Shown piece by piece: positions 1 through 22,159 of a DNA stretch of 42,959 nucleotides. Made by a program: the position numbers and the translations under genes. Under the pieces are notes generated by a model. It saw only the letters and a program-made list of their open reading frames with translations. It searched no databases and was not told the DNA's origin. Position 1 is the stretch's first letter; the number at the start of each line of letters is the position of its first letter. The DNA comes from a virus. The DNA lies in the IMG/VR virus record IMGVR_UViG_3300008117_000246, positions 1 to 42,959 of that record; one strand, 5' to 3'.

Positions 1-300
1 AAATCCTTGGGAAATCTTCAATCTGTTGGTGGTTATTTGAATTTGTTTAATTCTAATATTAAATCCTTGGGAAATCTTCAATCTGTTGGTGGTTATTTGA
101 ATTTGTTTAATTCTAATATTAAATCCTTGGGAAATCTTCAATCTGTTGGTGGTTATTTGAATTTGTATAATACAAATATTGAATCCTTGGGAAATCTTCA
201 ATCTGTTGGTGGTGATTTGGATTTGCGTGAATCAAAAATCCAATCCTTGGGAAATCTTCAATCTGTTGGTGGTAATTTGTATTTGAATAGAACTCCATTA
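1..300 (+). repeat. Tandem 60-bp coding repeats
   Basis: Five head-to-tail 60-bp units. Bases 1-60 and 61-120 are identical; the next three differ mainly in the 3' third, which encodes the variable x-L-x-L-xxx-x-I strand. The constant part is ccttgggaaatcttcaatct. The same unit recurs at about 553-850, 2994-3110 and 3370-3420 inside the sister genes. It is in frame and coding, not a CRISPR. Confidence 0.95.
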
Positions 301-366
301 TCCAAAACAACAACTAAAGAAGAAATCCGGAACCAAGTTGAAGTTGGCGGTAATATATATATGTAA
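1..366 (+). CDS. Leucine-rich-repeat protein of the tagged family (5' end outside window)
   Basis: The frame is open from base 1, so the start and any N-terminal tag lie upstream. The visible part is five 20-residue repeats of the form SLGNLQSVGG-x-L-x-L-xxx-x-I, then a cap with TPLSKTTTKEEIRNQVEVGG ending in NIYM. The regular L-x-L spacing suggests a short leucine-rich or beta-helix solenoid, usually a binding surface. Each repeat is exactly 60 bp, and the first two units are identical at DNA level, a sign of recent expansion. The same cap ends the genes at 382, 2811 and 3193. The last codons and the following intergenic bases are repeated after the ADP-ribosyltransferase-like gene at 2795. 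Ligand unknown. Confidence 0.8.
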   Translation, partial: KSLGNLQSVGGYLNLFNSNIKSLGNLQSVGGYLNLFNSNIKSLGNLQSVGGYLNLYNTNIESLGNLQSVGGDLDLRESKIQSLGNLQSVGGNLYLNRTPLSKTTTKEEIRNQVEVGGNIYM

Positions 367-369
367 TGC

Positions 370-377
370 ATATTTAT
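370..377 (+). promoter_or_regulatory. ATATTTAT box four bases before the start codon
   Basis: ATATTTAT followed by AATT and then the ATG at 382. The same box and four-base gap occur before the starts at 2157, 2811, 3193 and 3511 (and as TGTATTTAT before 937). Probable phage promoter -10-like element; if so, the transcript would be almost leaderless. No Shine-Dalgarno is visible. Confidence 0.55.
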
Positions 378-381
378 AATT

Positions 382-921
382 ATGAAATATCTCATCACAG
401 AACGGCAACTCAAGTTAATCAAGGAGGACAACATCCGGAAAATTGATTTTGATATATTCAATAATGATTGGGCTTTATTACAAAAATTCCTGGAGCGTAG
501 AGGAAATCCGCCATATATCATTACAGGTTATTTGGATTTGTTTAATTCTAATATTAAATCCTTGGGAAATCTTCAATCTGTTGGAGGTAATTTGTATTTG
601 ATTAATACAAAAATTGAATCCTTGGGAAATCTTCAATCTGTTGGTGGTTTTTTGAATTTGTATAATACAAATATTCAATCCTTGGGAAATCTTCAATCTG
701 TTGGTGGTTATTTGGATTTGAGAGGTACAAAAATTGAATCCTTGGGAAATCTTCAATCTGTTGGTGGTAATTTGAATTTGAATAATACAAAAATTGAATC
801 CTTGGGAAATCTCCAATATGTTGAAGGTCAGTTGTATTTGAATAGAACTCCATTATCCAAAATAACAACGGAAAAAGAAATCCGGAACCAAGTTGAAGTT
901 GGTGGTGAGATTTATTTATAA
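382..921 (+). CDS. Tagged leucine-rich-repeat protein
   Basis: 179 aa. Residues 1-15 are the tag MKYLITERQLKLIKE, whose end I-K-E fits the (I/L)-x-E site of T4-type prohead proteases. Residues 17-50 form a shared adapter (FDIFNNDWALLQKFLERRGN then PPYIITG) that also opens the genes at 2811 and 3193 and, without the tag, the gene at 8088. Five 20-residue repeats follow, then the cap TPLSKITTEKEIRNQVEVGG. The start is fixed by the ATATTTAT-AATT-ATG arrangement. Inferred role: virion-internal or injected binding protein; the target is unknown. Confidence 0.8.
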   Translation: MKYLITERQLKLIKEDNIRKIDFDIFNNDWALLQKFLERRGNPPYIITGYLDLFNSNIKSLGNLQSVGGNLYLINTKIESLGNLQSVGGFLNLYNTNIQSLGNLQSVGGYLDLRGTKIESLGNLQSVGGNLNLNNTKIESLGNLQYVEGQLYLNRTPLSKITTEKEIRNQVEVGGEIYL

Positions 922-925
922 AATG

Positions 926-932
926 TATTTAT
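926..932 (+). promoter_or_regulatory. TATTTAT box before the gene at 937
   Basis: TATTTAT then CATT then ATG, the same four-base spacing as the other tagged genes; the full 8-mer is diverged in its first base (GTATTTAT). Confidence 0.5.
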
Positions 933-936
933 CATT

Positions 937-2115
937 ATGAAATATATTATCACAAAGCCCCAATTTAATTTGTTGGTTGAAGGGAAGCCAAAGTTAATTT
1001 CAGAAGGAAGGAGGGAAGAATTAACTAACAAATATGAGAGAAAATTCAAGGAATATCCTGAATACGCGGATTTTCTCCTCAAAAACCTACACCCAAACTC
1101 CAGTTCGGAAGAAATTGCTGACGCAATAAAACTAATTGAAGATTTTGATAAGTTTTCAAAAAACCTAACAAAAAAGGATATTAACCAATATGATAGTTTG
1201 GAAGAGCTTGATGGCGTAATAACCCCATATCTGGCGTCAAGAGACCCAGAATCAGACGCAGAAAAAATTTATGAGGACGACAGACTTCTTGTTGTAGTTC
1301 CAAAAAATGAGGAAGCATCTTGCAAATATGGCGCAAACACCAAATGGTGCGTCACCTCAAAAGGTTCCGGACAATTTGATAGATATACATCAGGAAATCA
1401 AATTTTATATTTCATAATTGATAAGAAAAACTCCACAAATAAAGAATATTCAAAAGTTGCCGTCCATATTGACAACAGAAAAAAATATACTTATTACGAC
1501 ACCAAGGATACGGTGATGAGTGATAGAGAAATTGGACTTCTGGAATACGCATTTCCTGAAATGATGAAAGCAATATCCGATCATTATACCAAATTAGCGG
1601 GTGAAAAATCGTATGTTATGTTAGACAAAGTGTTTGACAATAATATTTGGGGGGCTGAAAGTTTTGAATCAGAGTATATTGACACTAATTCTTTTTATTA
1701 TGAAATTATGGTAATGGGATTTAATCAGACGACCGAAGTTAATGAAGAAATACAAAAAGCAGCTGGAACGGTGCGTGTTTTTCTGGCTTCCGAACCATAC
1801 TATAGAACTCCCGTCGATCAATATAGTTTAACCATATATTATACTGAAACCAAACTGCCATATTTTGAGATTACAATTGAATTAGAACGGAAACTTGTTC
1901 CAGATATTATAAAAGATGGGCATGTGGTAGATTGTGAAATGGATGGTGATTCATTTAAAATTGCTTTCCTTAAAGAAGAAACTGCGAAGGATACGGCTAA
2001 GGTTATCAGGAAAACAATAGCATATACCTTGCAAGATAATTTATATAATAAAGTAAAATCGCGATTATCGGATATGGCCAAAGTTATATTCAGAGAAGAA
2101 GATGAGGATGATTGA
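937..2115 (+). CDS. Tagged WC-motif domain protein
   Basis: 392 aa. It opens with the tag MKYIITKPQFNLLVE (L-V-E); a second possible cleavage site, I-S-E, lies at residues 21-23. Residues about 110-190 hold a module with CKYGANTKWCVTS at 129-141, followed by a hydrophobic strand ending YFIIDKK. The same KYGAxTxWCxTS...YFI pattern is in the genes at 9763 and 29838. The C-terminal half (about 200-390) is not recognised. The WC-containing module occurs in many phage proteins without an assigned function as far as I know. The TATTTAT box four bases before the ATG supports this start. Putative capsid cargo. Confidence 0.8.
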   Translation: MKYIITKPQFNLLVEGKPKLISEGRREELTNKYERKFKEYPEYADFLLKNLHPNSSSEEIADAIKLIEDFDKFSKNLTKKDINQYDSLEELDGVITPYLASRDPESDAEKIYEDDRLLVVVPKNEEASCKYGANTKWCVTSKGSGQFDRYTSGNQILYFIIDKKNSTNKEYSKVAVHIDNRKKYTYYDTKDTVMSDREIGLLEYAFPEMMKAISDHYTKLAGEKSYVMLDKVFDNNIWGAESFESEYIDTNSFYYEIMVMGFNQTTEVNEEIQKAAGTVRVFLASEPYYRTPVDQYSLTIYYTETKLPYFEITIELERKLVPDIIKDGHVVDCEMDGDSFKIAFLKEETAKDTAKVIRKTIAYTLQDNLYNKVKSRLSDMAKVIFREEDEDD

Positions 2116-2144
2116 CGCTAATCACAAACTTTAATTAGTTCAAC

Positions 2145-2152
2145 ATATTTAT
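2145..2152 (+). promoter_or_regulatory. ATATTTAT box before the ART-like gene
   Basis: ATATTTAT, then TTGT, then ATG at 2157. It keeps the four-base gap although the flanking bases differ from the LRR genes, which argues for selection on the box and spacing rather than simple copying. Confidence 0.55.
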
Positions 2153-2156
2153 TTGT

Positions 2157-2795
2157 ATGATACTAAATGAAGAAATATCAAGGATTAAATCTATTATGGG
2201 TTTAATTGTTGAAGATGACGGAGAATTGCTTCAACCAAGAATTAAACCCGGTGTTGAAGACTTATTTAATTTGGTTCCAGAATTATCTGAAATTGGAACA
2301 CCGCAACAATATTCCGAATATCTTGATACAATATTTCCAGAAAGCGAAAATAAAGATATTTGGTTTCATGCCACAAATGTGGATCCCAGCATTATAGATA
2401 AGTTTAGATCCAGTCCATCTGGAACATATGGACCTGGCGTATATTTTCAATCGGAAAAAGGTTATTGGACAACAGAAAAGGTTGGTAAAAATACAATATA
2501 TGCAATAGTTAATGCAAACAAGTTGTTTAACTTTGACAAGTTTGGTGATGAAATGATTAGTAAATATAGAGACGAATATAATAGTCCCAGAAAAACATAT
2601 GAAACTCCAAGACCAACATTTGCATTACAAAAAGAATTAATGGATATGGGATACAATAGTTTATTTGATATTATGACTAAAACCAATAAATATCTGGTTA
2701 TGTTTCCATCATTTGAAGATCAAATCCACATATTGGGCAATCAGCAGGATATTGATATGTTTAGAGAATTTGTTGGCGGTAATATATATATGTAA
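2157..2795 (+). CDS. Tagged ADP-ribosyltransferase-like protein
   Basis: 212 aa. The first 19 residues (MILNEEISRIKSIMGLIVE) form a tag ending I-V-E. The body looks like a phage ADP-ribosyltransferase of the HYE type: WFHAT (His71) for NAD binding, GTYGPGVYF (residues 89-97) as the Tyr strand, then MGYNSLF and YLVMFPSFEDQIHIL near 183-193, the place where such enzymes carry the catalytic Glu/Gln strand. T4 Alt is a packaged ADP-ribosyltransferase that modifies host RNA polymerase, so a tagged one fits capsid delivery. Catalysis is inferred from motifs only. Its last codons (VGGNIYM) and the bases after them match the end of the LRR gene at 366. Confidence 0.65.
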   Translation: MILNEEISRIKSIMGLIVEDDGELLQPRIKPGVEDLFNLVPELSEIGTPQQYSEYLDTIFPESENKDIWFHATNVDPSIIDKFRSSPSGTYGPGVYFQSEKGYWTTEKVGKNTIYAIVNANKLFNFDKFGDEMISKYRDEYNSPRKTYETPRPTFALQKELMDMGYNSLFDIMTKTNKYLVMFPSFEDQIHILGNQQDIDMFREFVGGNIYM

Positions 2796-2798
2796 TGC

Positions 2799-2806
2799 AT
2801 ATTTAT
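2799..2806 (+). promoter_or_regulatory. ATATTTAT box before the frameshifted LRR gene
   Basis: ATATTTAT-AATT-ATG, with the surrounding sequence nearly identical to 366-400, showing that the promoter-like box and tag have been copied as one unit. Confidence 0.55.
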
Positions 2807-2810
2807 AATT

Positions 2811-3177
2811 ATGAAATATCTTATCACAGAACGGCAACTCAAGTTAATTAAGGAGGACAACATCCGGAAAATTGATTTTGATATATTCAATAATGATTGG
2901 GCTTTATTACAAAAATTCCTGGAGCGTAGAGGAAATCCACCTTATATTATTACAGGTGATTTGTTATTTGTATTTGACTGGTTCAAATATTGAATCCTTG
3001 GGAAATCTTCAATCTGTTGGTGGTAATTTGGATTTGAATAGTACAAAAATTGAATCCTTGGGAAATCTTCAATCTGTTGGTGGTAATTTGTATTTGAATA
3101 GAACTCCATTATCCAAAATAACAACGGAAAAAGAAATCCGGAACCAAGTTGAAGTTGGTGGAGGTATTTATCTTTAA
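2811..3177 (+). pseudogene. Tagged LRR gene broken by a 7-bp insertion
   Basis: The first 45 codons are almost identical to the gene at 382 (tag MKYLITERQLKLIKE plus adapter up to PPYIITG). The frame then ends early (GDLLFVFDWFKY, stop at 2991-2993). The expected continuation, LYLTGSNIESLGNLQSVGG plus one further repeat and the usual cap, runs in another frame to 3177. Around 2957-2974 the sequence reads gatttg-ttatttg-tatttgact; removing the extra 7 bp restores the frame. It is probably a slippage duplication. Either a pseudogene, a phase-variable gene or an assembly error. Confidence 0.75.
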
Positions 3178-3180
3178 TGC

Positions 3181-3188
3181 ATATTTAT
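3181..3188 (+). promoter_or_regulatory. ATATTTAT box before the gene at 3193
   Basis: ATATTTAT-AATT-ATG, identical layout to the boxes at 370 and 2799. Confidence 0.55.
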
Positions 3189-3192
3189 AATT

Positions 3193-3495
3193 ATGAAATA
3201 TCTTATCACAGAACGGCAACTCAAGTTAATTAAGGAGCAAGATGAAATCCTGGAATTGGATTTTGATTTTTTTAATAACAACTGGAATATTTTACAAAAA
3301 TTCCTGGAACGCAGAGGAAATCCTCCTTATATTATTACAGGTGATTTGGATTTGAGAAATACAAAAATTGAATCCTTGGGAAATCTTCAATCTGTTGATG
3401 GGGATTTGTATTTGACGAATACTCCATTATCCAAAACAACAACCGAAGAAGAAATCCGGAACCAAGTTGAAGTTGAAGGTGAAATTGTAATGTAA
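3193..3495 (+). CDS. Short tagged LRR protein
   Basis: 100 aa. Tag MKYLITERQLKLIKE, then a diverged adapter (residues 18-49, containing FNNNWNILQKFLERRGN and PPYIITG), one and a half 20-residue repeats, and the cap TPLSKTTTEEEIRNQVEVEG. This is the minimal working version of the family: tag, adapter, one repeat, cap. It sits in the same tandem array and has its own ATATTTAT box, so each member appears to be transcribed separately. Confidence 0.75.
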   Translation: MKYLITERQLKLIKEQDEILELDFDFFNNNWNILQKFLERRGNPPYIITGDLDLRNTKIESLGNLQSVDGDLYLTNTPLSKTTTEEEIRNQVEVEGEIVM

Positions 3496-3498
3496 TTA

Positions 3499-3506
3499 AT
3501 ATTTAT
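3499..3506 (+). promoter_or_regulatory. ATATTTAT box before the micro-gene at 3511
   Basis: ATATTTAT-AATT-ATG with the family spacing retained, although the gene behind it is only 39 codons long. Confidence 0.5.
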
Positions 3507-3510
3507 AATT

Positions 3511-3630
3511 ATGAAATATCTCATCACAGAACGCCAATTGCAGTTAATAAAGGAAGATGATATACATATATTGGGTAATGAAAATGATATTGAAGGTTTC
3601 AAAAACTTTGTCGGTAACCGATATTTTTAA
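3511..3630 (+). CDS. Micro-gene: tag fused to the tail of an ART-like protein
   Basis: 39 aa. Residues 1-15 are MKYLITERQLQLIKE, the LRR-family tag with one change. The rest (DDIHILGNENDIEGFKNFVG then NRYF) matches the last 25 residues of the ART-like protein at 2157 (DQIHILGNQQDIDMFREFVG). The catalytic region is absent. The gene therefore looks like a deletion or recombination product joining an LRR-type tag to the end of an ART paralogue. It may be a remnant; an expressed peptide is possible because start, box and frame are intact. Confidence 0.65.
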   Translation: MKYLITERQLQLIKEDDIHILGNENDIEGFKNFVGNRYF

Positions 3631-4336: not shown

Positions 4337-6592
4337 ATGATTAGAAAAATTTTATTTATTTTAATGTTTCCTGTTTGTCTTTTTTCACAGGATACGGTTA
4401 CTTGGAGTTTGAATTTACCTGAATTTACGGTGAAGTCAGTTGGAAAAAAGGAATCATCGGCTGCGGTTATCAATATGATTAAAAATAATGTCGTAGTTTC
4501 TGATGGATTATCATCTGAATTTGTTAAGAGAACCCCTGATAGAAATGTTAGTGACGCTCTGAAAAGGATAAATGGTGTCACAATTCAGAATGATAGATTT
4601 GTTTTGGTAAGAGGATTATCTGATAGATATAATTTGGCGATGTTGAATAAAACTTTGCTTCCTTCAACAGAACCTGATAGAAAGTCATTTTCATTTGATG
4701 TTATTCCATCTAATATGATTGATAACTTGGTGATTGTTAAATCGGCGACACCAAGTTTGCCAGGTGATTTTGGTGGAGGTATCGTTCAGATCACAACAAA
4801 GGAGGTTTCTGATAATTTCATGAATGTTGGTTTGAGTTCAAGTTATGGATTTATATCAACAGGACAACCTTTTAAGTTAATTTCCCCAAATTATTTTCCG
4901 TCCAACTTCCCATCAACTTATAAATTCAGAGTTGGTAGTTTGGGAGATAGAAGAGCATATTCAAGTTTGATGACTGATGGTAAAACCAGAGAATTTACCA
5001 CAATCCCCAACCTTGGTGGGAATGTTGCTTATGGATATGAAAAAGGAAATTGGTACTTTTTGCTTTCGGCATCGGCTAGAGAGAACAATACTTTGAATTA
5101 TATTGACAGACAAGATTATCAATCTTCAACAGAACTTGCTTATAAATACAAAGATACGATGTGTTCAAGTGTTTCAACGTTGAATGGACTTCTGAATATA
5201 ACATATTATGATAAGCACAAGTTTTCCTTGAAGTCTTTATTCAATAGACAGATTGAAAACACCTATTTAACACGAAATGGTGAGAACTATGACAATATTC
5301 AGGATGTTAGGAGTAATTCATCAAATACGATTGAAAAAACAATCTTGAATACTCAATTTGAAGGAAAGATTAACAATACTGACTTTATTTTGGGACATAA
5401 CTTGATGTTGAGAGACCAACCTGATTATAGAGTTAATCCAATTGTCCGTTCTTTGGGAACTGATGACAAATTTTCGATTGCTTGGAGGGATACTTACAGG
5501 TTTTGGTCGGTTATGAATGAAAATTCCTTAAATGGTGCCGTAAATCATACATATAAAGATTTCAAAGTTGGTGGTTTATATATCAAAAGAACAAGAACTT
5601 TCAAAGCAAGAGTTTTTAGATATGACGCACCTGATTTATTGAATGAAATAACGAACAACACGGACAGATATTCAACAGATTTTGATTTGATGGCTGGATA
5701 TGCTCAATATGATAAAGAATTTGGGAAAATTAAGGTTAATGGAGGGTTGAGAGTTGAATATAATTTGTTTGATGTTGCCACATCTGATTTCTCTGGCGAG
5801 AAAATAAATGTGGAAAGGGAATATTTGGACTTTTTGCCGTCATTTAACTTATCATATAACCTTGAAAAGATTAAAGTTCGGGCATCATCATCCAAAACTC
5901 TTGCTCGTCCAGAATTCAGGGAGGTTGCCAACTTCGCTTACTACGATTTTGTGAGAAATGCTCAAATTTTGGGAAATTCATCTCTTGAAAAGTCGGACAT
6001 ATACAATTTTGACTTAAAATTTGAATATTACCCCAAGTTTGGTGAGAACATATCGGTTGCTTTGTTCGGAAAGAAGTTTATCAAACCGATTGAGCAGATT
6101 GTTGCCGATGGTTCCGTTCCATCAAACCTTCTTTTAACATATACAAACCCAGATGATGCGGTTTTATATGGAATTGAACTTGAATTTAGAAAAAAATTAA
6201 ATTCATCCTTTGATGTATATACAAACGCAACATTATCCTCATCAAAAGTTGTCGTTAATGGTATTTCAAGGAGTCTGCAAGGACAATCTGGTTATATTTT
6301 GAACGGAGGGGTGAATTACAAGTTGGATAATAATGTTTTCAGTTTGTCATATAATAGAGTGGGTGATAGAATATCCGCAGTTGGGTTCCAAGGATACCCA
6401 AATATATATGAAAACTCACGAGACATATTTGATTTTGTATATTTGAGAAAGATTAATAAGGTCGAGGTTAAATTGGCGATAAATGATATACTAGCACAAC
6501 CATCAAAGTATTATCAAAAGGTAAATCACAGAGATTTAATAAACACAAATAATGAGCAATCAATCTCATTATCATTAAATGTAAAAATATGA
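4337..6592 (+). CDS. TonB-dependent outer-membrane receptor
   Basis: 751 aa. An N-terminal signal peptide (IRKILFILMFPVCLFS) is followed by a plug domain at about residues 50-160 with the hallmarks NVSDALKRINGVTIQNDRF, VRGLSDRYN, DVIPSNMIDNLVIVKSATP and PGDFGGGIVQI. The rest is a long stretch of alternating aromatic-rich strands ending in LSLNVKI, as in 22-strand barrels. Such receptors import siderophores, vitamins or glycans in Bacteroidota. It overlaps the lipoprotein gene by ATGA, so the two are translationally coupled. It is a host-type gene flanked by phage genes; possibly receptor replacement, superinfection exclusion or nutrient uptake. Confidence 0.9.
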   Translation: MIRKILFILMFPVCLFSQDTVTWSLNLPEFTVKSVGKKESSAAVINMIKNNVVVSDGLSSEFVKRTPDRNVSDALKRINGVTIQNDRFVLVRGLSDRYNLAMLNKTLLPSTEPDRKSFSFDVIPSNMIDNLVIVKSATPSLPGDFGGGIVQITTKEVSDNFMNVGLSSSYGFISTGQPFKLISPNYFPSNFPSTYKFRVGSLGDRRAYSSLMTDGKTREFTTIPNLGGNVAYGYEKGNWYFLLSASARENNTLNYIDRQDYQSSTELAYKYKDTMCSSVSTLNGLLNITYYDKHKFSLKSLFNRQIENTYLTRNGENYDNIQDVRSNSSNTIEKTILNTQFEGKINNTDFILGHNLMLRDQPDYRVNPIVRSLGTDDKFSIAWRDTYRFWSVMNENSLNGAVNHTYKDFKVGGLYIKRTRTFKARVFRYDAPDLLNEITNNTDRYSTDFDLMAGYAQYDKEFGKIKVNGGLRVEYNLFDVATSDFSGEKINVEREYLDFLPSFNLSYNLEKIKVRASSSKTLARPEFREVANFAYYDFVRNAQILGNSSLEKSDIYNFDLKFEYYPKFGENISVALFGKKFIKPIEQIVADGSVPSNLLLTYTNPDDAVLYGIELEFRKKLNSSFDVYTNATLSSSKVVVNGISRSLQGQSGYILNGGVNYKLDNNVFSLSYNRVGDRISAVGFQGYPNIYENSRDIFDFVYLRKINKVEVKLAINDILAQPSKYYQKVNHRDLINTNNEQSISLSLNVKI

Positions 6593-7800
6593 AAAAGTTT
6601 TTAACAATTTTGGCTGTTTCACTCCTATTTGTCAGCTGCGAAAAAAATTTGGGGGGAGAGGATGACGATGTAATTAATGTTCCGTCACAAACAACATTAA
6701 ATGGTGTCATAAACGCAACAACAACATTAACTTCCGATAAAACTTGGGTGTTAAAAGGTTATGTATATGTTACAGACGGAGCGTCTCTCATAATCCAACC
6801 AGGAACAAGGATTGTTTCCGATATTAGTGAAAAAGGTGCTCTATGTATCGAGAGAGGTTCAAAGATTATCGCCGAAGGAACCCAAGATAAACCCATCGTA
6901 TTTACATCAGGAAAACCGGATGGTGAAAAATCACCGGGAGATTGGGGTGGAATTATAATTTTGGGCAAAGCAAAAACAAATCGTTCATCAGAACCGACTA
7001 TTGAAGGGGGAATCGGTCGTCCTTATGGTGGAACGAATAATGAGGATAATAGTGGAATATTAAAATATGTCCGAATAGAATATGCCGGTGTGGCAGCACT
7101 ACCGAATTCAGAAATAAATGCCCTCACATTGGGTGGAGTTGGTTCAGGAACAACTATTGAGTATGTTCAAACCATTTATGCCAACGATGACGCATTTGAG
7201 TTCTTTGGTGGAACGGTTTCACCAAAATATCTATATGCTTTCGCCACAGCCGATGATGACTACGACTTTGATTTTGGTTATACTGGGACCTTAAATTATG
7301 GTATATCCAAAAGAGACCCACAATTTGTGGATACAGGTGATGCCGGCAACGGTGTTGAATGTGACAACGATGGTATTGGTTCATCCGCTGAACCATTCAC
7401 ACATCCAAAGTTGTATAATATGGTTCTGATTGGCGCAAATTCATCAACCGCTTTGAGTAATCATAATTTGGGGTTAAGATGGAGAAGAGCAACGCAATTC
7501 ACAATAGAAAACTCCAAAATAATAGGTCATATGAAAGGTGGATTCTCTATGGAGTCAAATGAAACCGCACAATCCTATAAAGATGGTGTTTCTAAGTTCA
7601 GAAACAACGTTGTGGGCGCTTTTGACCCGTCACTGAACTTCATATCCAAAGCGACTACAATAATGTCGTCAGCGGACGTTAAAACGAGGTGTTTATCCGA
7701 AGGAAACATAGAGAAAGTGTTTTCAGATAGTGAAATAAACGAACTATCAAAACCGATTTGGATTCAAAAGTGGGGGAGGTTCCCTCAGAAAGGTTTTTAA
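6589..7800 (+). CDS. Surface beta-helix lipoprotein partnered with the TonB receptor
   Basis: 403 aa. Lipoprotein signal MKKFLTILAVSLLFVSC with the lipobox at LFVSC; the residues after Cys17 (EKNLGGEDDD) are acidic, as in Bacteroidota lipoproteins exported to the cell surface. The body has right-handed beta-helix features: LIIQPGTRIV, GALCIERGSKIIAEGTQDKP, GDWGGIIILGKAK and IRYV-like strands, with an Asp-rich segment (DDDYDFDF) that could bind cation. Relatives of this lipoprotein are commonly encoded next to TonB receptors in Bacteroidota. It is not a SusD homologue by eye. Start fixed by the ATGA overlap with the receptor gene. Confidence 0.85.
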   Translation: MKKFLTILAVSLLFVSCEKNLGGEDDDVINVPSQTTLNGVINATTTLTSDKTWVLKGYVYVTDGASLIIQPGTRIVSDISEKGALCIERGSKIIAEGTQDKPIVFTSGKPDGEKSPGDWGGIIILGKAKTNRSSEPTIEGGIGRPYGGTNNEDNSGILKYVRIEYAGVAALPNSEINALTLGGVGSGTTIEYVQTIYANDDAFEFFGGTVSPKYLYAFATADDDYDFDFGYTGTLNYGISKRDPQFVDTGDAGNGVECDNDGIGSSAEPFTHPKLYNMVLIGANSSTALSNHNLGLRWRRATQFTIENSKIIGHMKGGFSMESNETAQSYKDGVSKFRNNVVGAFDPSLNFISKATTIMSSADVKTRCLSEGNIEKVFSDSEINELSKPIWIQKWGRFPQKGF

Positions 7801-8087: not shown

Positions 8088-8537
8088 ATGCTGATAATGG
8101 AGAATCCGCTGGAAATTAATTTTAATTATTTTGATAATGACTGGGATGCTTTACAAACATTTTTAAATAATAAAGGTAATCCCCCATATATAATAACAAC
8201 AAATTTGAACCTGAAAAGAAAGAAGGTAAATTCGTTTTATAGATTGTTAGGTGTAGAAAATAATTTGAATTTGGAACAAGCCAACATTGTATCATTAGGC
8301 CATTTAATATATGTAAAAGGCGACTTGAATCTAGAATTATCTAATATTCAAACACTATCCAATCTGGAGTATGTTTTAGGGTCAGTTGATCTATCCTCAA
8401 CATTTATTGAAGATCTCGGACATTTAAAGTTTGTTGGTAATAATTTGGATTTAAGGGGGTGTAGGTTTTACAATGCGCCAATTGATGAAATAAAAAGAAA
8501 AGTTAAGGTAATGGGTAAGATATTTATTGATTATTAA
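8088..8537 (+). CDS. Diverged LRR-family protein without tag
   Basis: 149 aa. Residues 9-38 (FNYFDNDWDALQTFLNNKGN then PPYIIT) match the adapter of the genes at 382-3495, followed by about four degenerate repeats of the L-x-L-xx-x-I-xxL form and a cap with IDEIKRKVKVMGKIFIDY that matches IRNQVEVGGNIYM of the array. The (I/L)-x-E tag is missing: the protein starts MLIMENPLEIN. It is therefore an older, tagless cousin, useful for separating what the tag does from what the repeat body does. DNA identity with the array is low. Confidence 0.75.
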   Translation: MLIMENPLEINFNYFDNDWDALQTFLNNKGNPPYIITTNLNLKRKKVNSFYRLLGVENNLNLEQANIVSLGHLIYVKGDLNLELSNIQTLSNLEYVLGSVDLSSTFIEDLGHLKFVGNNLDLRGCRFYNAPIDEIKRKVKVMGKIFIDY

Positions 8538-9369: not shown

Positions 9370-9738
9370 ATGAAGAAAATAGTTAGATTAACAGAATCGG
9401 ATATAACTAGAATTGTTAAAAGAGTTTTATCCGAGCAGGATTATTCCGAAAATCAATTGGAGACATCATTTGATGGAACCCTAAAACAGCCACTTTCTCT
9501 TGAAGTTTTTGACAAAACTGGAAAAAATATTAAAAAGGTTCAAGTTTATAAAGTTTTTAACGATCAAGGAAAGTATTTTGCGGTTTATAAAGGCCCCAAG
9601 ACTGGGAAAGATGTTTATAGGTATTATATAACTTGCGAATCATTAGAATTACATGACAATATTGATAAGCAGAGTTATAAAAACGATCAATTTGTTTTAG
9701 CGATGCGAAAAAGATTTTGCGGTTCATTCAAAAGATAA
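9370..9738 (+). CDS. Tagged small protein
   Basis: 122 aa. It opens with the classic form of the tag, MKKIVRLTESDITRIVKRVL followed by S-E-Q, so the proposed cut is after L-S-E at residue 22. The remainder (about 100 aa, with two Cys near 89 and 116) is unrecognised; it contains a KVQVYKVFND strand pair. Upstream there is no perfect ATATTTAT box, only an A/T-rich TATATAATTG. A terminator follows at once. Likely capsid cargo by its tag. Confidence 0.7.
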   Translation: MKKIVRLTESDITRIVKRVLSEQDYSENQLETSFDGTLKQPLSLEVFDKTGKNIKKVQVYKVFNDQGKYFAVYKGPKTGKDVYRYYITCESLELHDNIDKQSYKNDQFVLAMRKRFCGSFKR

Positions 9739-9740
9739 AA

Positions 9741-9765
9741 AAAAGCCCTTACGGGCTTTTTTTTA
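9741..9765 (+). terminator. Bidirectional terminator
   Basis: Perfect hairpin AAAAGCCC / GGGCTTTT with loop TTAC and T-runs on both strands. It serves the converging genes ending at 9738 (+) and 9763 (-). Confidence 0.9.
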
Positions 9766-11580
9766 TTCTAGGGGTTCTATATCCCAAATTCCATCACCTA
9801 TTTCCATACCTCTATCTAAAACTGAACTAGGTATTAGAGTGTCTTTATTTCCGACATTATTAATTAAGAACAAATTTTTCAGATTTCCAATACATTCTGG
9901 CAACTTTTTCAAGTTGGGGTTATTATTAACTCCAATAATTGTTATTTCTGTTAATTGACACATGAAATCTGGGAAATTATTGATACAATTATCAAAATAC
10001 ACGACTCTTAGATTTTTGAATCTAAGAATAGAATTTGGAATTTCAAAAAGTAACTGATTATTTCCTCTATTAACAATTCTTAACTCAGTTAATGAGTCAG
10101 GAAGAAATTGAAATAACTCTTCAAACCCATAAAGAGAGATAAATTTACCCACTTCTGATGCGGTTAAATTATCAACATGTAATTTATTGTCAGGTATTGA
10201 TATTTTACCAGCAAAAGTTGATTTTAATTTTTCTTTAATATTCTTGAACGAAGGTAAATTAATTAATGCTATGTCAGCATCATTTAATGCTGCTAATGAT
10301 TTAGTTGAGATAGAATCAATTTTTTTTGCGGTATAGTAATCAAGAACTTTTTTATCTGAATTACTTATTTGATTGGCGGTCAAGTCAAATCCCAAACTTA
10401 TATATTTTTTTTGTAATTCTGGTGTTAAATTAGCATACTGAGGGTCGCTCAAACGGTTTCCGCTAATTTCAATCCAAAATTCCACATCATCTAAATTACC
10501 ACCAAAATCTTGAATTGGATTATCTCCCACAGGTTTATTCCTAATACGGTTATATCTTTCTTTTTCTTCTGGTGATAATGGTTTTGGAACAAAAAGATTT
10601 TTCAAATCAGCAACCCAAGGTAATTTTTTAATAATTTCATCCCATGGTAATGCTTCATGACCGCTATATCTACCTGAGTTGGTGCCATCAGCCAATCTCA
10701 TTTTTCCATCTGGTTGAACCAATATTACCGCAGCAAAATTTACATCTTTAAATTCAATATTTTCATTAATTACATAATATAATGTCAAATTGTTATTAAA
10801 TCTGTAATTATAGAACAAATTACCTGCTCCGTCCCTTGATGTGCACCAAGATCTACCATTTCTTAACATTATACACTGGTCTTTCGTTTTAGGCTGGAAT
10901 ATTTTTACTCCACCTTTATCATATACCAGTTCGATATTTTCCATTTCTTTTTTCGGAATATTTAAAATATCTTCATCGCTTCTCAGTCCATCAACCAAGT
11001 GTTCAATATCTTCAACAGACATATCTAGAATTAATCCGGTGTCATCCGGTATTCTATTATAAACATTAAAAAGGTTATTTATGTATTCTTCCGCCGCATC
11101 TTTTGAAAATCCAGGTTGCGCTAAAAACTTAGGTAAAAGTTGCTTTTTCATTACCGCTTCAAAGTTCTTTTCCAAAAACTCCGTCAAATCCAAGAAATCG
11201 TATTGTGATAAGTCTTTTTTGTTATCTGGCAAGAATCTTTGAATATCTAAAAACTTTCTAATCATGGTTTTTAGATCATTATTACTAACACCTTCACTTT
11301 TTTTCTTGAAGATGGAAAAATATTTTTTAATGTCCGACTTTATTTTTTTGCTATTAACAACATTTTTTAATTGAGCGTAATTATATTTTTCAACATTTTT
11401 CATTTCAACCGGCAAAGATTCTTTTATCCTGTCGAAACCATCAATATATGACAAAATTACATCATCGGTGTCCTTAGTTTCCTGTTTAAATTTCGCTAAT
11501 AGTTTTTGAACTAACTTATCCGAAAATTCTTTTATCAATATTTCCCTAACCTGAGTGTTAAGTGCGTTAATTAAATTCAT
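9763..11580 (-). CDS. WC-motif domain protein with C-terminal leucine-rich repeats
   Basis: 605 aa. The N-terminus contains REILIKEF (residues 12-19), so an (I/L)-x-E site (I-K-E) is present near the usual tag position, although the upstream residues do not look like the ITE-type tag. The WC module lies at about 215-300: CIMLRNGRSWCTSRDG and then LTLYYVINENI. The C-terminal part (about 500-590) has plant-like LRRs such as IPNSILRFKNLRVVYFDN and LKKLPECIGNLKNLFLINN. It thus joins in one chain the two bodies that are separate in the 382-937 genes. On the minus strand, an ATATTTAT box lies 19 bases before the ATG. Confidence 0.75.
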   Translation of the reverse strand: MNLINALNTQVREILIKEFSDKLVQKLLAKFKQETKDTDDVILSYIDGFDRIKESLPVEMKNVEKYNYAQLKNVVNSKKIKSDIKKYFSIFKKKSEGVSNNDLKTMIRKFLDIQRFLPDNKKDLSQYDFLDLTEFLEKNFEAVMKKQLLPKFLAQPGFSKDAAEEYINNLFNVYNRIPDDTGLILDMSVEDIEHLVDGLRSDEDILNIPKKEMENIELVYDKGGVKIFQPKTKDQCIMLRNGRSWCTSRDGAGNLFYNYRFNNNLTLYYVINENIEFKDVNFAAVILVQPDGKMRLADGTNSGRYSGHEALPWDEIIKKLPWVADLKNLFVPKPLSPEEKERYNRIRNKPVGDNPIQDFGGNLDDVEFWIEISGNRLSDPQYANLTPELQKKYISLGFDLTANQISNSDKKVLDYYTAKKIDSISTKSLAALNDADIALINLPSFKNIKEKLKSTFAGKISIPDNKLHVDNLTASEVGKFISLYGFEELFQFLPDSLTELRIVNRGNNQLLFEIPNSILRFKNLRVVYFDNCINNFPDFMCQLTEITIIGVNNNPNLKKLPECIGNLKNLFLINNVGNKDTLIPSSVLDRGMEIGDGIWDIEPLE

Positions 11581-11723: not shown

Positions 11724-12731
11724 ATGATAGATTACGCGGATATTATTGTTGATTTACAAGCCGGAGATACCGGAAAAGGAAAAATAGCAAACCATTTGAT
11801 GTCAAAGTCCAAAAAATACACTCATGTTGTTAGATATAATGGCGGAGGTAATGCTGGACACACATTTTACTACGAAGGAAAAAAAATAATCACCCATTAC
11901 ATCCCAATCGGAGTTATTTATAAAATAAAATCGATAATTGGACCCGGTTGTGTTGTTAATCCAACAAAATTGTTTGAAGAGATTAACGACCTGGAAACCA
12001 TCGGATTCCCAGTTCGGGATTATCTCAAGATTGACAAAAGAGTTCATATCGTTCAGGACGAATATGTTGAAGAAGATATGTCTGACAGTCAAATTGGGAC
12101 CACAAAAACTGGAAACGGGCCAACTTATCGCAACAAATACAATAGGACAGGTTTGAGAGCAGAAAATTGCGATGAATTGAAAGATTTTATTGTGGATACT
12201 TACGATGAGTTCCATGGAAAGAATAAGGTGAAGATTTTATTTGAAGGAGCCCAGGGGTTCGAATTGGATATTGATTGGGGGGATTACCCTTTTGTCACCT
12301 CATCACACTGCACAGCAGGAAGCGCGTTAATGAATGGTGTGCCACCTCAAAAAGTCCGTGAGGTGTATGGTGTTGCCAAAGCGTATCGGACTTATGTTGG
12401 GGCAAAATCATTTGAACCAAATAACCCAATTTTTGAAGAGATTAGAGAAAAATTCGGTGAATTTGGGGCAACAACTGGACGTCCAAGACAAATTAATTGG
12501 TTAGATCTGGACACACTTATAAAAGCGACAAATATTAATGGTGCGACAATTGTTATTTTTAATAAATTTGACGTTCTAAAAAGCATTAATACTTTTGAAT
12601 TAATTTATAAAGGAGAAAACAAAAAATTTGATAATGAAGCGGAATTTGTTTTTTTCATCAAAAAAAAGATAAATAAATTTTGTCCTACCGTTAATAAAAT
12701 TGTGTTTAGTGAATCACCATATAGCATTTAA
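11724..12731 (+). CDS. Adenylosuccinate synthetase family enzyme (PurA/PurZ-like)
   Basis: 335 aa, the short archaeal/phage form (bacterial PurA is about 430 aa). The family joins aspartate to IMP (PurA) or to dGMP (PurZ) using a nucleoside triphosphate. Seen here: phosphate loop GDTGKGK (14-20) with the catalytic Asp15 kept, RYNGGGNAGHT (37-47) with His46, IGTTKTGNGPTYRNK, EFGATTGRPRQINWLD, and the base-reading motif NKFDVL. The C-terminus is abbreviated (SESPYSI instead of STGPxRxxTI). The retained Asp speaks for PurA or a PurZ0-like enzyme rather than classical PurZ. Substrate not decidable by eye. It lies 0.7 kb before a stand-alone tRNA-synthetase-like gene. Confidence 0.85.
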   Translation: MIDYADIIVDLQAGDTGKGKIANHLMSKSKKYTHVVRYNGGGNAGHTFYYEGKKIITHYIPIGVIYKIKSIIGPGCVVNPTKLFEEINDLETIGFPVRDYLKIDKRVHIVQDEYVEEDMSDSQIGTTKTGNGPTYRNKYNRTGLRAENCDELKDFIVDTYDEFHGKNKVKILFEGAQGFELDIDWGDYPFVTSSHCTAGSALMNGVPPQKVREVYGVAKAYRTYVGAKSFEPNNPIFEEIREKFGEFGATTGRPRQINWLDLDTLIKATNINGATIVIFNKFDVLKSINTFELIYKGENKKFDNEAEFVFFIKKKINKFCPTVNKIVFSESPYSI

Positions 12732-12735
12732 CCGT

Positions 12736-12743
12736 ATATTTAT
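12736..12743 (+). promoter_or_regulatory. ATATTTAT box
   Basis: ATATTTAT, 19 bases before the ATG at 12763, directly after the purA-like stop codon; implies the downstream small gene is transcribed on its own. Confidence 0.45.
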
Positions 12744-12762
12744 CGGTAATAAAAAGTTTTGA

Positions 12763-13053
12763 ATGGATTTATTCAAATTACATCAGATAATTGAGAAAAT
12801 TTTGCCGGTGATAACTAAACCACCATATGATAATGTGCGTTTTAGAATCCAAAATTATAAGGGCTTATACGAAATGAGTTTTGTTTTCGAATTACCGGAA
12901 GAATTATATGATATTATAAAGAAAAAAGATGAAAATTCTAATATTGAGGAAGTAAATGCACGTTTCGAAGCATATAGACTCCTGAAGACAATTAATAATT
13001 ACTTGAATACTAGGATAGTTATTAATGATATACGGTTTGAGAAAAAACGTTAA
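12763..13053 (+). CDS. Hypothetical protein
   Basis: 96 aa, mixed alpha/beta character, no signal or membrane segment, not recognised. It begins MDLFKLHQIIEKILPVITKP. The position between the PurA-like and synthetase-like genes could reflect function, but its own ATATTTAT box suggests separate control. Confidence 0.65.
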   Translation: MDLFKLHQIIEKILPVITKPPYDNVRFRIQNYKGLYEMSFVFELPEELYDIIKKKDENSNIEEVNARFEAYRLLKTINNYLNTRIVINDIRFEKKR

Positions 13054-13076
13054 GGTAAAAACTTTTTGATGTAATA

Positions 13077-13084
13077 ATATTTAT
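13077..13084 (+). promoter_or_regulatory. ATATTTAT box
   Basis: ATATTTAT, 12 bases before the ATG of the micro-gene at 13097; this supports that gene being real. Confidence 0.45.
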
Positions 13085-13096
13085 CTTCAAAAAGAC

Positions 13097-13216
13097 ATGG
13101 CAAAGAACAAAAAACCAAAAAAACCACCTATGAGTAGAAAATCTATACTCAAAAAAATGAAATTAATGAAATCCAATATGGAGGTAATTAAAAAATTACA
13201 AAGTCAGAATAATTAA
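13097..13216 (+). CDS. Very small basic protein
   Basis: 39 codons; peptide starts MAKNKKPKKPPMSRKSILKK and ends KLQSQNN. About a third of the residues are Lys or Arg, with four Met. Such peptides usually bind nucleic acid. Preceded by an ATATTTAT box 12 bases upstream of the ATG. It resembles in style the other tiny basic gene at 22870. Confidence 0.5.
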   Translation: MAKNKKPKKPPMSRKSILKKMKLMKSNMEVIKKLQSQNN

Positions 13217-13262
13217 AAAATTATTAGAATTTTTAACATATGATTTTTCCATAAAAATTACT

Positions 13263-13376
13263 ATATTTATTTCTGATGTTAAAATTAAAGAAATATAAGA
13301 TGAGAAATTGCTCTTTCAACCAAGAGCAAAAGATTATTTAATTTATTTAACCCTTCCGAAAGAAGGGTTTTTTTTT
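13263..13376 (+). ncRNA. Candidate small RNA or leader with its own box, hairpin and terminator
   Basis: Within 115 bases there is an ATATTTAT box (13263-13270), a perfect 8-bp hairpin TTGCTCTT-TCAACC-AAGAGCAA (13308-13329) and an intrinsic terminator (13349-13376), with no normal gene. A 13-codon frame (13300-13341) starts just before the hairpin, so a leader peptide is the alternative reading. It lies upstream of the synthetase-like gene, so it could act as an attenuator for that gene. Confidence 0.4.
13349..13376 (+). terminator. Intrinsic terminator
   Basis: Arms AACCCTTC and GAAGGGTT with loop CGAAA, followed by nine T. Located 29 bases before the ATG at 13405, so it separates that gene from upstream transcription unless regulated. 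Confidence 0.85.
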
Positions 13377-13404
13377 ATATATAAACTAAACCTAAATACA
13401 ATTT

Positions 13405-14247
13405 ATGAAAAACACAAAAATTTATCATGAACTAGTGCAGAAGATGAGAGAGTTCTTTCTCTCAAAAAATTTTATTGAAGTTCCAACTCAAAGTAGATTA
13501 TCTATTTTAGCAGCTTGTGAAAATCCTCATTCAGTTAAAACATTTGAATATGGTGGTGAAATTTGGCCGTTGCCACAAACCGGACAAATGTGGTTGGAAT
13601 ATGAATTATTGAAAAATCCAGAATGGGATGGTGTATTTTGTATCTCAACATCTTATCGGGAAGAAAAAAATCCAATTCCGGGTCGCCATGAGTTAATATT
13701 CCCGATGTTTGAGTTTGAAAGCAAAGGTGGGATGGATAAGTTATTACAACTTGAATCCGAGTTATTGGAGCATTTGGGATTTGACGAGCCAATAGAAGTT
13801 AATTATGATGACGTTTGCGAGGAATATGGGGGTGTATCAATATTGGAAGATGAGCATGAAAGTAAAATGTGGAAAGAGAAAGGAAGTGTAGTTTCTCTCC
13901 AATATTTTCCAAGAAGAACAAATCCTTTCTGGAATATGAAAAATAAAGATGGCGTTATTTTCAATAAAGTTGATGTTATTTTGTATGGTCAGGAAACTAT
14001 TGGAAGCGCAGAAAGAAGTTGTGATGTTGAAAAAATGCGTGAAATGTTCTATAGCATAGAAGATGGAAAATATTGCGCAAAATTGTTTGAACTATTCGGT
14101 AAAGATAGAGTTGAAAAAGAACTTAATGACTTTTTATCGCATAAATTCTTCCCAAGATTTGGTGGTGGAATTGGAATGACCAGAATGGCAAGAGCGTATG
14201 AATTATTAAAACAAGAAAAAGATGAATTAGTATTCTCAGACAACTAA
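13405..14247 (+). CDS. Stand-alone class II Asp/Asn-tRNA-synthetase-like catalytic core
   Basis: 280 aa, only the catalytic domain: there is no N-terminal OB-fold anticodon-binding domain, which the true AspRS/AsnRS (430-590 aa) has. Motif 2 is recognisable in YREEKNPIPGRHELIFPMFE (residues 80-100) and motif 3 in FGGGIGMTRMARAYELL (about 250-268). Stand-alone cores of this family include asparagine synthetase AsnA-type enzymes and synthetase paralogues that amidate or aminoacylate non-tRNA targets. The ADP/AMP chemistry on Asp or Asn is inferred. The near neighbour, a PurA-like enzyme, also uses aspartate. No phage system with both is known to me. Confidence 0.8.
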   Translation: MKNTKIYHELVQKMREFFLSKNFIEVPTQSRLSILAACENPHSVKTFEYGGEIWPLPQTGQMWLEYELLKNPEWDGVFCISTSYREEKNPIPGRHELIFPMFEFESKGGMDKLLQLESELLEHLGFDEPIEVNYDDVCEEYGGVSILEDEHESKMWKEKGSVVSLQYFPRRTNPFWNMKNKDGVIFNKVDVILYGQETIGSAERSCDVEKMREMFYSIEDGKYCAKLFELFGKDRVEKELNDFLSHKFFPRFGGGIGMTRMARAYELLKQEKDELVFSDN

Positions 14248-15851: not shown

Positions 15852-16772
15852 ATGAATTCGAGTTTTTCCAAAAAAAGACACATATTTGAAGCTAATCAAA
15901 GATTGGAACAAAGATTTTTACATGAACAAACAGCAACTGAAGATCCTACTCAAACAGGATTTAGGGCTGATAGAGGACAATTACCAAAAACACAGCCGGC
16001 GGCACAACCAGCATATGAGGATCCTACACAAACAGGATTTAGGGCTGATAGAGGACAATTACCAAAAACACAACCAGCGGCACAACCAGCAGTAAATAAT
16101 GCAAACCCTTATTATGATGAAAAAACCGGCAAAGTAGTGCAAATTGGAACACAAAGAACTGACACGTTAAAAGCAACCCATCAATTACCAGGTGATCGAT
16201 CTTACCAATACGGTAAAGACTTTAATGGTAATTGGTTTGCCCTCCGTTTATCGGATAAAAAATGGATTGATTTGAAAAATAATCCTGGTGCAATAGATAA
16301 ATTAAATAAATCCGCAATTACAATCGGCTCTCAACCGGCAAATAAAAACAAACAAATAAACAAATCTACTCAAACTGGAACAGATACGACCACATCAGCT
16401 AAACAAGCATCAGATGGGGGTGCAGTAAACACTAACCAACCAAATAATAATACAACTGCGCCAGCTGTTGATAATTCAAAACTTTTCATGACTAAAAATA
16501 TGATTGATAAAGAATTGAGTGATTTTAACACTGACGAAAAATATGTTGCAGGTCTTATTTCCCAATTAAATCAACAAGAATTTGATGCACTTATCAAGTC
16601 ATATGGCGGCCTACAAGGCATGACTACTAAGTTCTTCAACGCCTTTAAAGGTGTTCAGGATAGAGTAATGTTAGACCAAGCTTTACGTAAATTTGGATAT
16701 AAGTTTGATTTTACAAATGTTCGTGGTAATAAAGGAAAAATTAACAAAATACTAATGATTACGAAAACATAA
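15852..16772 (+). CDS. Tagged, repeat-linker protein
   Basis: 306 aa. N-terminus MNSSFSKKRHIFEANQRLEQ then RFLHEQ, a variant tag whose last element L-H-E (residue 25) fits the prohead cleavage rule. Residues 28-80 hold two near-identical 27-residue repeats (EDPTQTGFRADRGQLPKTQP plus AAQPA), followed by a Gln/Asn/Thr-rich linker. The last ~90 residues (LFMTKNMIDKELSDFNTDEK onward) form a compact helical domain with FNTDEKYVAGLI and LIKSYGGLQGM. The long low-complexity linker suggests a flexible tether. Virion cargo is inferred from the tag. Confidence 0.7.
   Translation: MNSSFSKKRHIFEANQRLEQRFLHEQTATEDPTQTGFRADRGQLPKTQPAAQPAYEDPTQTGFRADRGQLPKTQPAAQPAVNNANPYYDEKTGKVVQIGTQRTDTLKATHQLPGDRSYQYGKDFNGNWFALRLSDKKWIDLKNNPGAIDKLNKSAITIGSQPANKNKQINKSTQTGTDTTTSAKQASDGGAVNTNQPNNNTTAPAVDNSKLFMTKNMIDKELSDFNTDEKYVAGLISQLNQQEFDALIKSYGGLQGMTTKFFNAFKGVQDRVMLDQALRKFGYKFDFTNVRGNKGKINKILMITKT
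15937..16095 (+). repeat. Two tandem 81-bp coding repeats
   Basis: Two copies of a unit encoding EDPTQTGFRADRGQLPKTQP and AAQPA, nearly identical at DNA level, indicating recent duplication inside the linker. Confidence 0.85.
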
Positions 16773-20961: not shown

Positions 20962-21603
20962 TTATTTAAATTTTAACCCGGTTAAACTTTCAATTTTAGA
21001 TAATTGAACTTTATTATCAATAATCCCGTCTGCTTTGGATTTGTTATTTTCAAATAAATAAGCTTCCCATTTATTGGTTTTCTTAATATGAATTACTTTC
21101 CAGCACTGCGTTGGGACCGATACATCTTTTATCTTCTTTATTTCTCCAAGGTTTCCAGACCAAACATGAACAGAATCGTTTCTTTCCGCCAATTCTCTCG
21201 TTAAAGTTTCTAATGTAAGCCAATCACCGGCGTTTAGGGCGTGTTGTTGTGGTGATATATTGCTGAAAAAGAATGTTTCTTCTAATATGTTTTTTGTTAA
21301 GCATAAATTGTCAGCTGCTGGACACATATGACCACGGTCATATCCGCTATTTAGATAGTCGTCATTAAACTTTGTATCCCAAGACAACTTTGGGTCCGGC
21401 TTGAATGAGTTCTCTCGTTTATGGGGCTCTTTACAAGTTATTTTACTTTTTGTGACCCACCATTCAACCATTATTGGATAATTCTTGGATTTGCTGAATG
21501 TTGTTGTAAAATTTGAATGTTTTATTATAACCAAATCAGGGTTGGTTTGTTGAAAACAAGGAAATAATAGAAACAAATATAAAAAACTAATTTTACCTAA
21601 CAT
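20962..21603 (-). CDS. Exported DNA/RNA non-specific endonuclease (DRGH type)
   Basis: 213 aa from the ATG at 21603; a longer frame starts within the palindrome at 21617-21658. N-terminal hydrophobic segment LGKISFLYLFLLFPC, either a signal peptide or a lipoprotein signal (Cys after LFP). The catalytic motif of the beta-beta-alpha-Me nucleases is present as YDRGHMCPAAD (about residues 85-95), followed by FFFSNISPQ, as in NucA/EndoG. These enzymes cut DNA and RNA using Mg. An exported phage nuclease could attack competing DNA or scavenge nucleotides. Confidence 0.88.
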   Translation of the reverse strand: MLGKISFLYLFLLFPCFQQTNPDLVIIKHSNFTTTFSKSKNYPIMVEWWVTKSKITCKEPHKRENSFKPDPKLSWDTKFNDDYLNSGYDRGHMCPAADNLCLTKNILEETFFFSNISPQQHALNAGDWLTLETLTRELAERNDSVHVWSGNLGEIKKIKDVSVPTQCWKVIHIKKTNKWEAYLFENNKSKADGIIDNKVQLSKIESLTGLKFK

Positions 21604-21664: not shown

Positions 21665-22159
21665 ATGGGAAAACGATTTATAGTTACGGAAAACGAAAAA
21701 AAACAAATACACAAGTTGTATTTTTTGAATGAAGAGCCAAAAGATGACAGAAAATTTTGTCATGGCGGCAATGTAAAAACATTAGAGGAAATTATTGGCG
21801 ATGATGAATTTGAAGATTATATTGAAGGGGTTACGTTAAGGAAAAACGGAATTAATGGTTTGGCTGACCGATTGGAGTTGCTTAAAACATTAAGACTACA
21901 CCCAAAAATTGATGATGGTGGAGAACATCTTGCTTTTTCAATAATGAATGATTTGAAAGCATATAAGCCATACAATTATTTTGACGAAACTAAGAAAGAA
22001 TGTAATCGCGTTATGGATAAGATAATTGAGTTATACAAAGAGAATGAACATGGCGAGGAATTGGTTAAGGATATTGAAAAAGTTTATGGTATGAACCATT
22101 TAGCCCCTAGGGCAAAAGAATTCTTGAAACATGGCTTAAGTATGATCAGAGGGAAATGA
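21665..22159 (+). CDS. Tagged helical protein
   Basis: 164 aa. Tag MGKRFIVTENEKKQIHKLYF then LNE, the 'ITE-x-EKK-x-I-x-x-x-Y' form, ending L-N-E at residue 23. The remainder is helix-rich (LADRLELLKTLRLHP, CNRVMDKIIELYKENEHGEE), with His and Cys residues but no motif I recognise. Directly downstream of the palindrome at 21617 and followed by a terminator, so it is a single-gene unit. Confidence 0.7.
   Translation: MGKRFIVTENEKKQIHKLYFLNEEPKDDRKFCHGGNVKTLEEIIGDDEFEDYIEGVTLRKNGINGLADRLELLKTLRLHPKIDDGGEHLAFSIMNDLKAYKPYNYFDETKKECNRVMDKIIELYKENEHGEELVKDIEKVYGMNHLAPRAKEFLKHGLSMIRGK

Follow-up and report, generated by a model that had tools for sequence, protein, structure and literature searches.

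The closest described counterparts of the locus reported here are the internal proteins of phage T4. According to PMC9026906, these proteins carry propeptides of 10-19 residues that target them to the core, are cut by the protease gp21 at L/I-X-E and are injected with the DNA; gp21 also removes a propeptide of 65 residues from the capsid protein gp23, and swapping of protein bodies behind such a tag has been suggested for T4-like phages. One of them, IPI, is an inhibitor of the GmrSD restriction system; another, IPIII, is required on strain ECOR17 (PMC9391042). The T4 genes ipII and ipIII are identical over their first 30 coding bases and agree at only 10 of the next 30. Here we analysed a 42,959-bp viral fragment from IMG/VR (IMGVR_UViG_3300008117_000246; hereafter the window), which begins, at positions 1-3630, with a tandem gene array in which similar N-terminal tags precede unrelated bodies. 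With a probability of roughly 70%, in our estimate, these tags are capsid-targeting propeptides like those of the T4 internal proteins, placed on an enlarged and recombining cargo repertoire.

All members of the array lie on the plus strand (Table 1). They comprise a partial leucine-rich repeat (LRR) gene, three LRR genes with a tag (one of them frameshifted), a gene with a 'WC' motif, an ADP-ribosyltransferase (ART)-like gene and a remnant; the original prediction had recognised tandem genes sharing a tag, but had missed LRR genes 3 and 4, the WC gene and the remnant. Its central observation, that the DNA at about 366-500 and about 2795-2930 is nearly identical behind an LRR gene and an ART-like gene, holds over a longer stretch. 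The junction between LRR genes 1 and 2 matches that between the ART-like gene and LRR gene 3 at 186 of 192 positions over 343-534 (ungapped, offset 2429), as compared with 46% identity for the best of 400,000 random 192-bp pairs from the rest of the window. The left edge of this identity is sharp, ending at 343 within the final codons of two unrelated genes, and the VGGNIYM-stop codons, noticed earlier as common to both upstream genes, are identical in the two junctions, as is the box TGCATATTTATAATT. These junctions are scars of recombination. The six mismatches fall at 393, 420, 510, 513, 519 and 529, so that calling the event recent is fair for 343-509 (165 of 167 positions identical, 2 mismatches), but no strain-level relatives were found by which to date it. 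Pattern searches for relatives gave no match, either with the junction DNA or with exact peptides (of a 605-residue protein and, in the form used, of the LRR and ART genes).

The remnant joins an LRR-type tag (84% identity over 19 residues to LRR gene 2) to the tail of an ART-like protein (67% identity over 21 residues to the ART-like C-terminus; the DNA of the two tails aligns locally with a score of 73, where shuffled sequences reach at most 37.5). It ends in FVGNRYF, and the present ART-like gene ends in FVGGNIYM, with codons of the LRR type; we infer that the original end of the latter was replaced through a crossover at a short shared stretch. LRR gene 3 looks like a mosaic of LRR2-like and LRR4-like sequence, since the last four junction differences sit at the switch between the two, and its frameshift is consistent with a 7-bp duplication. 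The junction block and the fusion of tag A to an ART-like tail bear out that bodies are exchanged behind a constant N-terminal tag, with recombination at the junctions. Outside the array, an LRR paralogue has the same N-cap and no tag, which indicates that tag and body are separable.

Two other elements of the proposed cassette fared less well. The 60-bp units at 1-60 and 61-120 are indeed identical to each other, but each encodes a 20-residue LRR repeat inside a gene; relatives have about 1-10 such repeats per protein, and the units are hence not junction repeats. Because the contig begins within an LRR repeat, the copy number at this edge may be an assembly effect, and the repeat number of LRR gene 1 is unsafe. 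The box T[AT]TTTAT had been taken as the constant promoter of the cassette. It lies no more than 25 bp from 21 of the 59 open reading frame (ORF) starts in the window, against 1.7 expected at random, often at position -11 or about -20 to -26, and is thus a general expression signal, likely a promoter element, common to many genes of the window; as an element specific to the cassette it was rejected.

Several tag families, of 15-30 residues each, occur in large Bacteroidetes-type myophages. Hidden Markov models (HMMs) of four of them, A, B, D and E, were run on the window and 181 loci (2531 ORFs in all), and matched 131, 236 (by best-family assignment), 47 and 55 N-termini, respectively, as compared with 0, 2, 1 and 0 internal segments of 45 residues. 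Since part of the ORF set was fetched through a search with tag B, the B counts are not frequencies; tags A, D and E were not used as queries in that scan. The tagged proteins of at least 80 residues (n=457) fall into 284 body clusters, 19 of them with more than one tag family, and, as read from the sequences, exchange of tag and body runs in both directions. When 111 unrelated tagged proteins were aligned, the consensus, MKKxIxLTExxLxxIxxxxxxE, was confined to the first ~22 columns. Tagged genes are grouped in islands.

The Pfam names found behind the tags, among 111 cluster representatives, are lysozyme (3), VanY (2), M23, SLT and LysM, together with GNAT acetyltransferase models, alpha/beta hydrolase and ART-PolyVal (below the curated cut-off). 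Most bodies are unnamed, and replication and capsid genes are absent among the families listed for these representatives; the named PHROGs of tagged bodies are mainly endolysins and peptidases. The tag strings had no relevant mention in the papers searched and no tblastn match among isolated phages, a weak test with such short queries. Among the isolates closest by baseplate protein is Flavobacterium phage immuto (27% identity; NC_055915.1), which by annotation has an S77 protease and a gp23 capsid protein. Two unrelated ORFs of this phage (L206:25061-25456 and L208:11675-12139) both start with MKKQILSEQF[RK]RMQ[KF]LAGIITES, a tag of its own.

The tags of the array end with an L/I-x-E site (LIKE/D, LLVE/G and LIVE/D, where the slash marks the putative cut). 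Early and late [LIVMF]xE sites are present in 79 of 131 A tags, 224 of 236 B tags, 43 of 47 D tags and 45 of 55 E tags, and the means for shuffled tags are 25, 47, 11 and 13. As members of one family are kin, these counts are not independent, and it is the agreement among unlike families that matters. Counted over all proteins, the N-terminal enrichment of [LI]xE is mild; the signal resides in the tag families. A prohead protease of the S77 (gp21-like) type (PF03420) is encoded in 18 of the 20 large contigs with tag B, and all 18 protease-encoding contigs also have a gp23-type capsid protein (PF07068). At the capsid N-terminus, INE/A occupies the column of T4 gp23 LTE/A in every one of the 18, with LKE, LYE and IKE/D upstream; IKE/D is also the end of the LRR tag in the window. 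The tag would most likely be a delivery signal, as originally proposed, in the sense of a signal for packaging.

On this reading, the array is most likely a cargo locus, belonging to a large T4-type Bacteroidetes phage, in which each gene would consist of two modules, a short N-terminal propeptide and an independent body. As the head assembles, the tag would bring its protein into the core of the prohead, where the S77 protease would cut after [LI]-x-E within the tag or at its end; the freed body would remain in the head, enter a new host with the DNA and act there. Homologous and short-homology recombination would duplicate, delete and swap bodies behind the tag, because near-identical tag DNA precedes unrelated bodies and adjacent LRR genes share their caps.

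Several observations weigh against this model. The window, as a 43-kb fragment, has neither a protease match nor a recognised capsid gene, so that it is assigned to the clade by synteny and by the tags in common. The late site of tag A is weak, with [LIVF]xE in residues 9-34 of 87 out of 131 proteins as compared with 51 out of 115 for an internal stretch, and the bodies named as lysozymes or peptidases might simply be endolysins of the ordinary kind. Of the tagged proteins in this clade, none is known from a virion or with a cleaved N-terminus. In the jumbo phage PA5oct, a homologue of the WC domain with the N-terminus MKLFEVFTLYE is a virion protein by mass spectrometry (MS), but N-terminal [LI]xE is not enriched in the MS-detected proteins of this phage (15/93 vs 52/249). 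The pattern M[KR]+[LI]xE gave 5/93 vs 8/249 (p=0.26), with p=0.02 only for a tuned pattern. The support from PA5oct is therefore one homologue, not a rule.

The lack of a general enrichment in the PA5oct MS data would also suit a different function, in which the tags would be modular peptides for localisation or docking inside the infected cell, binding for instance one phage or host hub protein, and would have spread over many bodies for this reason, with [LI]xE as part of a binding helix. The tags are short, charged and amphipathic-looking, and tag A is predicted to be helical at 7-15. We consider such a function unlikely, given that all the unlike tag families keep the [LI]xE sites, that the clade has a gp21-type protease with a matching capsid site, and that the T4 internal proteins share this design. 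Far less probable is an origin of the array by tandem LRR duplication with local gene conversion alone, the tag having no special role and the ART-like gene being inserted by chance: most array members are LRR paralogues whose repeats and caps suffice as a recombination substrate, and tandem LRR arrays occur in a relative (L016), but the same tags stand on hundreds of non-LRR bodies, tag matches persist without LRR genes, and the remnant fuses the tag to a non-LRR tail. An assembly artefact, in which collapsed or expanded repeats made the array and its junctions, would fit a contig that starts in an LRR gene at identical 60-bp units, and a related contig (G002) that also ends near an LRR gene, but is hardly credible where the junction copies differ at six sites and then lead into different repeat sets, and where relatives from other samples have the same gene plan.

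The LRR genes deserve a closer description. Genes 2-4 have a common tag and an N-cap ending GNPPYIITG; in each of the four genes the repeats are 20 residues long and the C-cap closes with an IYM/IYL-type motif. The AlphaFold model of LRR2 is a regular LRR solenoid of 20-residue units (predicted local distance difference test, pLDDT, 93), confident from about residue 20; confidence is lower over the tag, as expected of a removable leader. In comparison with the PDB, LRR structures top the list, weakly, and 8z5u indicates the fold class only. The repeat frame is near-invariant, with variable positions 11, 13, 15, 16 and 18, which suggests a binding face. No LRR relatives were found in bacterial genomes, and the tagged family occurs in six other contigs: L012 (one gene, adjoining a baseplate-type gene), G002 (three, one of them tagless), G003 and G004 (one each), G005 (L016; at least four in tandem) and G010 (two). 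The window is collinear with G002 over 18-38 kb, in inverse orientation, and has shorter collinear blocks in common with G005, G010 and G024. Its LRR/WC/ART order is found in none of the syntenic relatives examined, and LRR copy number and neighbours differ among these relatives, which are different phages and not strains; the locus thus varies, as the idea of body exchange had demanded. A wider version of the propeptide model, a possibility that we hold only tentatively, would see here a general protein-injection system, with interchangeable packaging tags of several families, through which any body could enter the head, and dozens of injected effectors per genome, in which the LRR arrays, with their invariant framework, five variable positions, 1-10 repeats and recombination of both repeats and cassettes, are fast-evolving binders diversifying against host defences.

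The name 'ART-like' was taken over from the original prediction. The motif fits (WFHAT...GPGVYF) and is the only support for the label; the gene has no match in Pfam, PHROG or PDB, and its single-sequence model, with a pLDDT of 33, gives no reliable fold. A relative has a tagged ART-PolyVal protein (below the Pfam cut-off) that has only the tag in common with the gene of the window. The WC body is found with tag A, tag B or C-type tags, with very short N-termini, or untagged. A KYGA.T.WC-like motif is present in three proteins of the window (937-2115, 9763-11580 and 29838-30890); this domain has no Pfam match, is frequent in large phages and has several paralogues in G010 and SCTP-2.

Table 1. 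The array, its junction blocks and further tagged or related genes of the window (slash, putative cut)
Feature	Position	Strand	Remarks
LRR gene 1	1-366	+	5' end truncated by contig start; terminates EVGGNIYM
Junction block, copy 1 (LRR1 tail, box, tag, LRR2 N-cap)	343-534	+	186/192 identity with 2772-2963
LRR gene 2, 179 residues	382-921	+	Tag A MKYLITERQLKLIKE/D at 382-426, N-cap, 5 repeats, C-cap
'WC'-motif protein, 392 residues	937-2115	+	Tag MKYIITKPQFNLLVE/G, diverged; homologues have other tags or none
ART-like gene	2157-2795	+	Tag D MILNEEISRIKSIMGLIVE/D; LRR-type final codons; ART assignment from motif alone
Junction block, copy 2 (ART tail, box, tag, LRR3 N-cap)	2772-2963	+	Pairs with 343-534
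LRR gene 3, tag A	2811-3177	+	Frameshift in first repeat; 5' part LRR2-like, then LRR4-like
LRR gene 4, 100 residues	3193-3495	+	Tag A; about one repeat between caps
Remnant ORF, 39 codons	3511-3630	+	Tag A joined to ART-like C-terminal tail (DDIHILGNENDIEGFKNFVGNRYF)
LRR paralogue without tag	8088-8537	+	N-cap as in tagged LRR genes
Unrelated body, tag B MKKIVRLTESDITRIVKRVLSE/Q	9370-9738	+	
Unrelated body, tag E MGKRFIVTENEKKQIHKLYFLNE	21665-22159	+	Tag B or E on relatives of body
Body with C-type tag MKDLIKKVLGESIKKINE	24434-25408	+	By eye, without HMM
Body with tag-like N-terminus MRKFILDILKNHVGVISE	25413-26480	+	By eye, without HMM
Conserved gene, C-type tag MNNLRKIIREALE	28975-29601	+	
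Unrelated body, tag A MDFLITESQFNYLVE/N	32282-32902	-	

Other genes of the window were noted in passing. A tag-like N-terminus, ending LHE, is also seen in the ORF at 15852-16772, which contains a 78-bp tandem repeat (15926-16091) coding for PTQTGFRADRGQLPKTQPA repeats. In the region 4337-7800, a gene for a TonB-dependent outer-membrane receptor (PF14905, PF07715) precedes one whose product has a lipoprotein-like N-terminus and a 37% relative in G010; this is unusual phage cargo. Adenylosuccinate synthetase (PF00709) and a class II tRNA-synthetase-like gene lie at 11724-14247, and a DNA/RNA non-specific endonuclease (PF01223) with a hydrophobic N-terminus, at 20962-21603, has 52% identity to its counterpart in the syntenic G002. 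The gene at 40268-41034 is split over frames and looks frameshift-broken, the intact single ORF in the relative L015 (2079-3170) having 363 residues.

Should the tags act as propeptides for packaging, one could read directly from sequence which effectors this large, mostly uncultured phage group injects: any protein with such an N-terminus would be a candidate first-strike protein at host entry. Given the roles of T4 IPI and IPIII (PMC9391042), candidate anti-defence proteins could be catalogued in this way. Body-swapping behind a tag would then proceed at a far larger scale than PMC9026906 suggests for T4-like phages.

How does this locus compare with known systems? The original prediction had likened it to toxin or antigen cassettes. 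Polymorphic toxins (Rhs/CDI) likewise combine a constant delivery part with exchangeable effector bodies; they differ in that their constant part is a large secreted N-terminus and not a tag of only 15-30 residues, and delivery here would be via the virion. Pfam scans showed no Rhs/YD repeats or immunity genes, and with no expression site or silent cassettes seen either, we do not retain the idea of cassette switching. The ejection (E) proteins and inner body of phiKZ and SPN3US are alike in belonging to large phages with many head proteins whose propeptides, which in phiKZ contain several cleavage sites, are trimmed after E. However, the phiKZ motif is S/A-X-E, the phage lineage is another, and the excerpts of PMC9026906 describe no tag shared by unrelated bodies. 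The bS21-encoding lake Bacteroidetes phages (PMC9723584) are also large myophages, and they encode bS21 close to the prohead protease but on the other strand. A bS21 match was present in 16 of the 26 records examined, all 16 among the 20 large tagged contigs, and absent from the window, which is a fragment; PMC9723584 does not mention the terms internal proteins and leucine repeats.

The likeness to T4 and other Straboviridae is closest. IPI, IPII, IPIII and Alt also have a short propeptide ending [LI]xE and near-identical DNA before unrelated bodies, together with a gp21-family protease and a gp23-type capsid protein with a matching site. An ADP-ribosyltransferase is part of the T4 cargo too, the gene of the window being so called by motif only, and a duplicated tag-bearing fragment adjoins its parent gene in T4 (alt.-1/alt.-2, annotation of NC_000866). 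Between the tags and T4 MKTYQEFIAE and MELITE the layout is alike by eye only, significant sequence similarity not being shown. The clade differs in having several tag families (T4 has one or two), longer tags that often have two sites, hundreds of bodies, and arrays of LRR paralogues, which are not known from T4. The design of the T4 internal proteins is already known, and the system described here is a much enlarged variant of it, not a new kind of system.

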